Assembly: GCF_012848855.1 (NCBI RefSeq)
Contig: NZ_CP051630.1
Location: 2,273,501 to 2,337,500, forward strand
Length of the DNA: 64,000 nt
DNA from: Pyruvatibacter mobilis
Lineage (GTDB): Bacteria; Pseudomonadota; Alphaproteobacteria; CGMCC-115125
Reading direction: 5' to 3'
Part shown: in pieces, positions 51,536 through 53,422 of the stretch
Layout of the letters: each line of letters begins with the position of its first letter
How positions within the stretch are numbered: the stretch's first letter is position 1
Notes under the pieces: generated by a model
The model's input: the letters and a program-made list of their open reading frames with translations, nothing else
Databases searched by the model: none
Told to the model about the DNA's origin: nothing
Program-made: the position numbers and the translations under genes

Positions 51536-51772
51536 TCAGGCGTGCCAGCGCGGCAAAGGGGTGCCGTTCTTCGCTTCGGCATCCTGCCGCGCCGTATCAA
51601 TGGTGTGACGCAGCATCTCGGCTGTGGTTGCCATGTCGAACTCCTCCGAAATGCGGATGAACAGGGCAAGCACGTCGCGCATCTGCTCGGCGGCTTCGGT
51701 GGCTGATTTGGGCCACACATTGTCCGGGTCTTCGTCGAAGTCGAAGGATTGGGGGAGGTCAGGCGACGGCAT
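51536..51772 (-). CDS. Small acidic protein overlapping the luxI 3' end
   Basis: A 78-residue protein, mostly helical by composition, with SFDFDEDPDNVW then AAEQMRDVLALFIRISEEFDMATTAEMLRHTIDTAR. I do not recognise the family. AGGAG lies before ATG 51772 within the luxI coding region; the genes overlap by 14 bases, which suggests translational coupling. In position it recalls CinS of Rhizobium, a small antirepressor made from the cinI transcript, but no sequence match is claimed. Confidence 0.7.
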   Translation of the reverse strand: MPSPDLPQSFDFDEDPDNVWPKSATEAAEQMRDVLALFIRISEEFDMATTAEMLRHTIDTARQDAEAKNGTPLPRWHA

Positions 51773-52454
51773 CGCGCTTCTCCTTTCCGGTAGCGGCTGC
51801 AATGGCGGGGCGGCGTGTGTCGGCGGGTGCCTGATCGGGCAGCGGCACGAAGACCTGGCCGTCGATGCGGTTGAGGTCGCGCAGGCTGGCGGCCAGGCTT
51901 TCGGACACCGGGAAATAGCCCGCGATGAAACGCCCGTCCGGGAAGGACATGGTGGGGCCGTAATAGGTGACGTCGAGGCCTGCGCCTTCCAGCGACTTCT
52001 CCGCGACGCGCTGATAGGTGACGAAGCTCAGCCGCTCGATGCCATGGCTGACCGCCCATTCGACATTGGCGATCAGCAGCATGGCGAACCAGCGGCGGTA
52101 ATCAGCGACCGGCAGGGAGACATCAACGCCGGTGCGCGAGCCTTCCGCGTCACGCGCCGAGCGCGGCAGGGGCACGGCCTGGGCAAGCTCCGGCCACAGG
52201 CTGGCCAGCATGTAGGGGCGGTCGCAGGTGATCATGCGGCTCTGGGCACGCACCTGGCCGGTATCGTCGATGCCGACCAGGTAACGGGCGGCAAGTGTGT
52301 CGAATTCGTCGAACTCCATGTTGTCGAGCTCGGGCAGGGTCCACTTCGCGCCCTGCCGGTACAGCGCATGACGCAGCCGGTGCATGGAGGCGTGGATCTG
52401 TTCGTGGGGATAGGGGGCGGCGCAGGGACGCGCCAAGGCAAACTCGTAAATCAT
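51759..52454 (-). CDS. luxI: LuxI-family acyl-homoserine lactone synthase
   Basis: A 231-residue synthase that would make an N-acyl-homoserine lactone from SAM and an acyl carrier. Conserved points are visible: Arg and aromatic residues in RHALYRQGAKW, the Asp pair in EFDEFDT, Arg in AQSRMITC, and Glu-x-x-Arg in EGSRTGVD. The last 30 residues are an unstructured tail. ATG 52454 is supported by GGAG seven bases upstream, but both lie inside a perfect inverted repeat. The luxR gene is directly upstream on the same strand. Confidence 0.88.
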   Translation of the reverse strand: MIYEFALARPCAAPYPHEQIHASMHRLRHALYRQGAKWTLPELDNMEFDEFDTLAARYLVGIDDTGQVRAQSRMITCDRPYMLASLWPELAQAVPLPRSARDAEGSRTGVDVSLPVADYRRWFAMLLIANVEWAVSHGIERLSFVTYQRVAEKSLEGAGLDVTYYGPTMSFPDGRFIAGYFPVSESLAASLRDLNRIDGQVFVPLPDQAPADTRRPAIAAATGKEKRDAVA

Positions 52455-52485
52455 AGTCAGGCTCCGCAGTTGGAGCCTGACTATG
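52452..52485 (-). promoter_or_regulatory. Perfect 34-base inverted repeat enclosing the luxI ribosome site and start codon
   Basis: Arms of 14 bases, CATAGTCAGGCTCC and GGAGCCTGACTATG, flank the 6-base spacer GCAGTT. In the luxI mRNA the 3' arm is exactly the GGAG ribosome site, spacer and AUG, so a hairpin would hide all of them. There is no T-run, so it is not a terminator. A DNA operator for LuxR or another dimeric regulator is the alternative. It fills over half of the 54-base luxR-luxI gap. Confidence 0.85.
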
Positions 52486-52508
52486 GTCAACAGGGGCGCA
52501 TCAGGGAG

Positions 52509-53219
52509 CTACCAGAACCGGTAGTTTCCCTCGGCAATTCCCGTCTTGTGGGCGACAGAGGCCACTTCGACGCGGCTGGTGAGCTGCAATTTGCGGAAGA
52601 TGTTCTTCTTGTGGAAGTGCACGCCGCTTTCGCTGATGCCGAGGATGCAGCTGATGGTCCAGTCATCCTTGCCGGCAGCAATCCAGCGCATGACCTCGCG
52701 CTCGCGCTTGGTGAGCTTGAAGGCTTTCAATGTATCGCGTGACCAGTTGCGCACGCGCAGGACATGCATGGCGCTGGTCATGGCGTAGACCGCCATCACG
52801 TGTTCATCCGTGTCCGGCTTGTTTTCGCAGGCGACCGAGACGGCGCCTTCATAGCCGCCGCCGGTGATCAGCGGGGCGCTGATGCCGTAGCGCATGCCCG
52901 CGTCTCCCGCCTCCCCCATGAAGCGTTTCTGGGCGCGGGTTTCGACCGGGCAATCGGACCAGATGAAGGGGAGGTTGTGCACCGTCGAGTGTGCAACCAC
53001 AGGATCATGGCTGTGCAGGCCGCCATAATAGGCTTCCAGCCAGTCATCATCGTAGCTCGAGCTTTCCACCAGGTGTTCGTTCACCCGGTCCGCATCGCGG
53101 GCGCGGACGCCGTACATATGCTTGTCGAAGCCCAGTTCTTCGATCGACCTGGCCCATGTCGCGATCTCACCGCCGGTCTCGGCGGCGGCGCTCAGGTCGT
53201 CAAGGTAGTCTGCAAACAT
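52509..53219 (-). CDS. luxR: LuxR-family quorum-sensing regulator
   Basis: A 236-residue regulator. The N-terminal autoinducer domain keeps the usual landmarks: W and Y in WLEAYYGGLHSHDPVV (with Asp-Pro), W in FIWSD, and Gly in GISAPL. The C-terminal HTH reads LTKREREVMRWIAAGK and ISESGVHFHKKNIFRKL. It would bind the lactone made by LuxI and regulate target genes. AAGGA before ATG 53219 supports the start. It shares strand and probably transcript with luxI. No typical 20-base lux box is seen in the 200 bases upstream. Confidence 0.92.
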   Translation of the reverse strand: MFADYLDDLSAAAETGGEIATWARSIEELGFDKHMYGVRARDADRVNEHLVESSSYDDDWLEAYYGGLHSHDPVVAHSTVHNLPFIWSDCPVETRAQKRFMGEAGDAGMRYGISAPLITGGGYEGAVSVACENKPDTDEHVMAVYAMTSAMHVLRVRNWSRDTLKAFKLTKREREVMRWIAAGKDDWTISCILGISESGVHFHKKNIFRKLQLTSRVEVASVAHKTGIAEGNYRFW

Positions 53220-53422
53220 GAACAGTCCTTAACCTTGTTGCCGGTGCCAAAGGGTCCGATGAGACAGCGTTCAAGTCAATAACCGCATGAGGTCAAAGGA
53301 ATTAGGGATGGCGGACGATCTGCACAGAAGTCCGGTGCCTGAGCGATGGGGACGATCGGCAAACTTTCCTAGATAGGCGGGGTCGAACCGAACCACCTGT
53401 CCTGACAATCTGGAGGTTTTCC

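Follow-up and report, generated by a model that had tools for sequence, protein, structure and literature searches.

Within a 64,000-nucleotide stretch of DNA (hereafter, the window), the luxI-type gene of a tandem luxR-luxI pair begins inside a long perfect hairpin, and we favor, with somewhat better than even confidence, the reading that this hairpin serves as a fold-back read-through insulator that ties luxI translation to the AHL-driven promoter. According to this reading, the 5' arm would be promoter DNA lying between a lux-box-like dyad and the luxI start, and would become RNA only in read-through, and the 3' arm would provide the luxI ribosome site and start codon. Long RNA arriving from luxR would carry both arms and fold, and the fold would presumably block luxI translation in the cell; short RNA from the LuxR-AHL-dependent promoter would start about the loop, lack the 5' arm, and be translated freely. 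LuxI synthesis would then depend on the autoinduced promoter rather than on luxR read-through, giving a lower leak and a sharper quorum threshold. The lock on luxI would probably be opened by promoter choice rather than by a ligand.

The two genes lie on the minus strand, with luxR upstream of luxI and a gap of 54 nt between them. The luxR-type regulator gene (52509-53219; 236 aa) matches Pfam Autoind_bind and GerE above cut-off, and the luxI-type AHL synthase gene (51759-52454; 231 aa) matches Autoind_synth above cut-off. An earlier note, made from the sequence of this region, had described a perfect inverted repeat with 14-bp arms and a loop of six at 52452-52485, and we recovered this 34-bp repeat exactly. 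In minus-strand RNA it forms a hairpin composed of a 5' (left) arm (CATAGTCAGGCTCC, 52485-52472), the loop AACTGC (52466-52471), and a 3' (right) arm (52465-52452), and the 3' arm does hold, as had been proposed, the entire luxI start signal (i.e., GGAG at 52465-52462, a 7-nt spacer, and the AUG at 52454-52452). The luxR stop codon precedes the 5' arm by 23 nt. We regard this AUG as the likely true start by conservation across the genus, given that in the alignment the ATG is conserved and the opening residues MIYEFALA are invariant in 4/4 genus genomes. No terminator-like site was found within 52400-53400, and luxR-to-luxI read-through is therefore likely.

The plus strand carries the mirrored GGAG-N7-ATG (52472-52485) followed by a 13-codon frame (MVNRGASGSYQNR, 52483-52524), both as previously described. 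We rejected an antisense mini-gene: the frame recurs in congeners G001 and G003 (by eye), as expected from the fixed gap length and the conserved dyad, and the mirrored ATG is absent in congener G002. The frame itself probably arises incidentally from the palindrome and from the conserved dyad. A search of 52200-53400 against Rfam returned four matches, all under the gathering score, the best being RsmY on the plus strand (52411-52527; 24.2 bits versus a gathering score of 57, E 0.0015), which spans the hairpin on the opposite strand.

We assessed the rarity of the hairpin in an 864-kb sample of the window's genome (the window plus 40 stretches of 20 kb), in which a crude gene finder predicted 738 genes. 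The 369 of these with a good SD, all from the window's genome and including both of its luxI genes, served as control genes. Among them, luxI ranked first for the length of perfect pairing across the SD (14 pairs), and the next best had 7; with G-U pairs allowed, one other gene exceeded luxI (18 pairs). In congener G003, 158 genes from 400 kb had SD-covering stems of at most 6 perfect pairs (15 if G-U is counted). Three block-shuffled versions of the 864 kb contained no perfect inverted repeat with arms of at least 14 and a loop of 3-12, whereas the real sequence contained 8; those other than that of luxI were mostly GC-rich stems with A/T-rich ends, terminator-like by eye. The exact arms occur in the genome at the luxI locus only, which led us to discard a mobile or repeated element. 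The computed luxI hairpin is thus real and non-random. Two further genes came to our attention in these samples: a 458-aa gene of the same genome (L105:1649-3025, minus strand) carries an 18-pair, G-U-containing hairpin across both its SD and its start codon and may be a case of this device beyond quorum sensing, and a 284-aa gene of G003 (L086:9878-10732, minus strand) has a 15-pair, G-U-containing hairpin over its SD.

Comparison within the genus covered four genomes (i.e., that of the window and congeners G001, G002, and G003), with the LuxI of G002 being 64% identical to that of the window. All three congeners carry a hairpin at the same place, with the same 54-nt gap (counted by eye) and different letters. 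More specifically, in a gap-free alignment of the four hairpins, in which we offset the G002 row by one base to bring its GGAG into register, 6 of 14 pairs were altered on both sides, and 85.7% of alignment cells were paired, a value that fell to 30-39% when one arm was slid by 1-3 columns. The computed covariation score was matched by 0 of 500 shuffles; resting on four sequences, two of them close, it is strong but not deep. The earlier note had proposed looking for compensatory arm changes among relatives, and the six pairs supply them. Since these pairs changed on both sides with the hairpin kept, the comparison indicates that selection acts on RNA pairing at the luxI start. The motif GCTCC-N6-GGAG is kept in all four genomes, and the SDs of the congener luxI1 genes have a predicted unpaired probability of at most 0.025. 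Counted without gaps, the congener luxI1 stems comprise 4, 4, and 9 perfect pairs (7, 8, and 10 with G-U), the window stem being the extreme. The stem is interrupted in G001 and G003 (4 consecutive perfect pairs, 7-8 with G-U), which we counted against the insulator, and that of G002 covers the SD, not the AUG.

Each of the four genomes also possesses a second luxI (in the window's genome, L024 at G000:C1:2758875-2759432), again with a hairpin over the SD (imperfect in G002). In the two genomes examined for this (G000 and G003), its upstream neighbor is a divergent gene, not luxR, and appears alpha/beta-hydrolase-like by eye. Taking both genes together, in 7/8 luxI leaders of the genus opening the start site cost more energy than after shuffling of the upstream sequence (p<=0.05), and the eighth reached p=0.065.

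This occlusion test, in which the upstream part is shuffled, the stretch from SD to AUG is kept, and the opening energies of the start region are compared, can be considered calibrated because 20 of 369 genes of the window's genome reach p<=0.05. Outside the genus, we applied it to two sets of luxI loci: set 1 suggested the hypothesis, and set 2 was a repeat, examined after the idea had formed. Each set had 106 loci among the matches listed; exclusion of loci without a usable frame or start (10 and 17, respectively) and of duplicates (7 and 1) left 89 in set 1 and 88 in set 2. A luxI scan of named genomes yielded nothing with the window protein as query and 28 loci with an alignment as query. 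Start codons outside the genus were assigned by an SD-weighted rule, the same for luxI and luxR leaders. We defined as tandem those loci with luxR directly upstream of luxI on the same strand, as marked by a luxR HMM; widening the luxR call with an HMM from the loci of both sets raised the set-1 count from 47/89 to 50/89, and 113 of the 177 luxI loci examined, among the matches listed, had the tandem order.

Among the matches listed, occlusion at p<=0.05 was found in 20/50 tandem and 9/39 other loci of set 1, and in 27/63 tandem and 3/25 other loci of set 2; pooled, the computed excess was 47/113 for tandem versus 12/64 for other luxI (Fisher 0.0026, rank test 1.3e-7). As a matched control we took the luxR leaders from these loci, of which 7/112 were occluded, versus 46/112 for luxI. 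Some loci are related, and a family table, with labels taken from search tables and typed by hand, guards against kinship: family-mean z was above zero in 33 of 36 tandem families or singletons and in 17 of 33 others, and within the seven families holding both kinds, 29/72 tandem loci and 1/17 other loci were occluded. Taxon is a possible confounder, as it is mixed with tandem order and the non-tandem group is rich in gammaproteobacteria (at p<=0.05, set-1 luxI genes numbered 3/16 in gamma- and 26/73 in alphaproteobacteria). More than half of the tandem loci (66/113) fell short of p<=0.05, which we also counted against the insulator. Among non-tandem loci, occlusion was distributed over those with a divergent luxR (3/5), other same-strand neighbors (7/32), other divergent neighbors (2/17), and no neighbor found (0/10). 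Thus, the tandem arrangement is the principal setting of luxI start occlusion without being the sole one, and read-through from luxR does not account for every case, because the second luxI has a divergent neighbor in G000 and G003 and three of the five loci with a divergent luxR are occluded. Two observations were made on individual loci of these searches. The luxI of genome G570 (L206), for which no luxR was found directly upstream, shows the highest family-mean excess (z 7.96, one member) and a long hairpin around its start. Four luxI-like frames (L202, L203, L128, and L118) contain one or two in-frame TAG codons, and are decayed copies or reflect frame problems.

The lux box consensus is an imperfect dyad of about 20 bp with CT-N12-AG. 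A dyad of this form (AACTACCGGTTCTGGTAGCT, minus strand, 52507-52526; 7/10 pairs, CT-N12-AG) overlaps the luxR stop codon (52511-52509) in the window and is a putative LuxR site. Its score is 8.5 (null fraction at that score, 0.005), and its center lies 62 nt upstream of the luxI AUG. The dyad core is identical in three of the four genus genomes; none at threshold was found in G002, whose luxI1 still has the hairpin. Upstream of the second luxI, a weaker, related dyad below threshold was placed by eye (center at 61-63), and it is top-ranked only in G003 and G002. In the 97 leaders of set 1 and the genus (8 of them from the genus), 24 had a dyad scoring at least 8.5, versus 0.5% of shuffles; 33 had one scoring at least 8, of which 29 were centered 62-79 nt upstream of luxI. 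The corresponding count at a score of at least 8 in set 2 was 20/88.

The lux box of V. fischeri is centered about 42.5 bp before the transcription start. Applying this spacing to the window dyad, we predict that luxI transcription starts at about 52471-52474 (dyad center +43 to +46), that is, at the first base of the loop or the end of the 5' arm. If the dyad is a class II lux box, the first six bases of the 5' arm (52485-52480) would occupy the -10 position; no clear -10 consensus relative to the dyad emerged, the best column from +11 to +60 being T at +38 (0.30 bit), and this weak signal counts against the insulator. A transcription start that leaves no 5' arm in the RNA had been named in the earlier note as a case against a structural lock. 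The predicted lux promoter would give just such a start, but read-through RNA would keep both arms.

We then have, for loci with a dyad scoring at least 8 at a distance of 55-85 nt (29 from set 1, three of them from the genus, and 15 from set 2; 44 loci), the opening energy of the luxI start in RNA beginning at every second base past the dyad center. Averaged over the 29 set-1 loci, this energy was 12-13 kcal/mol at +10 to +28 and 4.6 kcal/mol at +44 (shuffled, 7.2 to 5.2); likewise, over the 15 set-2 loci it went from 10-11 to 4.6 kcal/mol at +44 (shuffled, 7.5 to 5.2). The mean occlusion is thus lost, by computation, at about the position of the predicted start. Of those loci at 10 kcal/mol or more at +10, 23/27 were at 7 or less by +44, compared with 73/141 equally occluded shuffles (Fisher 0.0012); as the latter figure shows, RNA starting at +44 will often lack the 5' arm in any case when a hairpin lies just upstream of the SD in a short leader, which weakens the argument for the insulator. 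Of the remaining four of these 27, L019 (10.9) and L140 (9.6) stayed clearly occluded at +44, and L169 and L147 were at the limit (~7). Occlusion in L151 increased towards the start, and L289 and L290 displayed no drop. For the four second luxI genes and the luxI1 of G002, analysed with hand-entered centers, occlusion was gone by +42 to +44. The position of the drop correlated with dyad distance at r = -0.26 when measured from the dyad and r = 0.73 when measured from the ATG; we do not rest the argument on this correlation, since by construction a value of about 0.6 (our estimate) would arise even under independence.

Several other readings of the hairpin have to be weighed against the insulator. 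The most substantial of them, which we nevertheless judge unlikely, is a regulated lock within the leader of the luxI promoter's own transcript, which an sRNA, a protein, or a change in temperature would open. It would lead one to expect start sequestration and covariation equally, and it has precedents in P. aeruginosa, where, in the available text of the two papers, a ROSE-like thermometer is described for lasI (PMC13104619) and a stem-loop covering the RBS is predicted for rhlI (PMC6786874). However, in dyad-bearing loci and at both genus luxI genes the 5' arm lies on average between the dyad and the predicted start, and the occlusion excess tracks tandem luxR (47/113, against 12/64 without it). 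Opening is also predicted to be costly (24.9 kcal/mol at 25°C, 21.7 at 37°C, and still 10.8 at 75°C), so that the hairpin is too stable for the temperature switch that had been suggested. An RNA thermometer of the ROSE or fourU type was rejected accordingly: there is no marginal stability near growth temperature, the cost of opening staying above 20 kcal/mol up to 37°C, and the features of these families are absent (the 5' arm pairs perfectly, with no UUUU and no unpaired G opposite the SD). Of the original proposal that RNA structure locks the luxI start, the lock itself is upheld by predicted occlusion, covariation, and recurrence in other taxa; its opening by temperature or by ribosomes finishing luxR is not supported, and nor is the alternative of a dyad operator.

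Translational coupling, whereby ribosomes terminating on luxR would open the hairpin and luxI would be translated only behind luxR, accords with the tandem order and identical 54-nt gap in 4/4 genomes. It predicts luxI translation from the long RNA, and the 23 nt from luxR stop to 5' arm, together with a median of 56 nt in the 47 other occluded tandem loci (1/47 below 15 nt), argue against opening by such ribosomes; we consider coupling very improbable. Scant credence can be given to the suggestion that the palindrome is a DNA operator, for LuxR or a repressor, over the luxI start. The dyad is perfect in the window and its GCTCC-N6-GGAG core is kept in 4/4 genus genomes, but the outer arm letters diverge among congeners, with pairing largely kept through G-U pairs and mismatches. 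The G-U pairs found in 34/47 occluding stems of the other tandem loci (61/503 pairs) fit RNA better than a DNA operator, and a better lux-box candidate exists upstream (52507-52526). Finally, we see hardly any prospect that the repeat is a terminator, a mobile repeat, or a functionless chance palindrome: perfect 14-bp stems are rare but do occur (the 8 in 864 kb), whereas the lack of any terminator-like site in 52400-53400, uniqueness of the arms, covariation, and recurrence at luxI starts speak against these possibilities.

If the insulator reading holds, its consequences concern how quorum thresholds are kept. Were luxR transcripts to run on into luxI, synthase would be produced in the absence of a quorum and the threshold would lose its sharpness; a hairpin built into the promoter and silencing read-through RNA only would explain low basal signal in tandem loci without a terminator, and would couple the choice of promoter to translation within a positive feedback circuit. 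It could also be useful in synthetic circuits as a small insulating element. A further caution is that translational fusions may give contrary results depending on how far upstream they are cut, and the setting of quorum thresholds after transcription would become directly testable. We see about an even chance that a wider rule applies, namely that in tandem luxR-luxI loci the luxI promoter carries an anti-ribosome-site arm, placed downstream of the lux box and ahead of the start site, by which RNA running in from luxR is silenced. Making LuxI would then require two keys, LuxR with AHL bound and initiation at the correct base, and many proteobacterial families would have gained or retained the arm while its sequence diverged.

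Two known systems work in a comparable way. In IS10/Tn10, read-through RNA folds back over the transposase RBS, and the element's own promoter starts inside the hairpin; in T4 gene e (lysozyme), the SD of the long transcript is sequestered by a hairpin, and RNA from a late promoter that starts inside this hairpin has its SD free. The luxI stem, by prediction and covariation, likewise pairs the SD/start region with an upstream arm. As in IS10, a 5' arm present only in outside transcripts would pair with the ribosome site, and as in gene e, the long RNA would be occluded and the inner-start RNA free. In contrast, IS10 is a mobile element and luxI a chromosomal quorum-sensing gene, whose inner promoter is presumably dependent on an activator and AHL, with the upstream gene encoding, as we suppose, that very activator. 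Gene e, for its part, is a phage timing switch unconnected to an autoinducing loop.

Among luxI-type genes, the sinI leader of S. meliloti is reportedly short (28 nt, a value that goes back to Baumgardt in 2014). In the available text of two papers, this leader is controlled by RNase E and RcsR1 (PMC5977203, PMC7143759), which resembles our case as posttranscriptional control of an alphaproteobacterial luxI-type leader and differs in operating by a nuclease and an sRNA, with no read-through hairpin in those portions. The lasI gene of P. aeruginosa, as described in the part of the source available, has a ROSE-like RNA thermometer in its own 5' UTR with a partly occluded RBS (PMC13104619); RNA structure over the RBS of a luxI-type gene is shared, but that structure responds to temperature, whereas the window hairpin is too stable to melt and is predicted to be absent from luxI's own transcript. 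For rhlI, which has rhlR beside it, the accessible portion of the source gives an Mfold-predicted stem-loop over the RBS and an sRNA of about 70 nt, RhlS, that shares one mapped start with rhlI (PMC6786874), from which we infer that the stem-loop, unlike that of the window, would lie within the native leader. The text available of PMC8450116 mentions IS10 antisense RNA and contains nothing on fold-back protection, and no quorum terms were found in PMC4110880 (Ca. Phaeomarinobacter ectocarpi). Among the papers listed in searches of the open PMC literature, judged by titles and the starts of abstracts, none gave an account of read-through insulation of luxI. The fold-back principle is known from IS10 and T4 gene e, and its proposed use at luxI against luxR read-through appears to be new.
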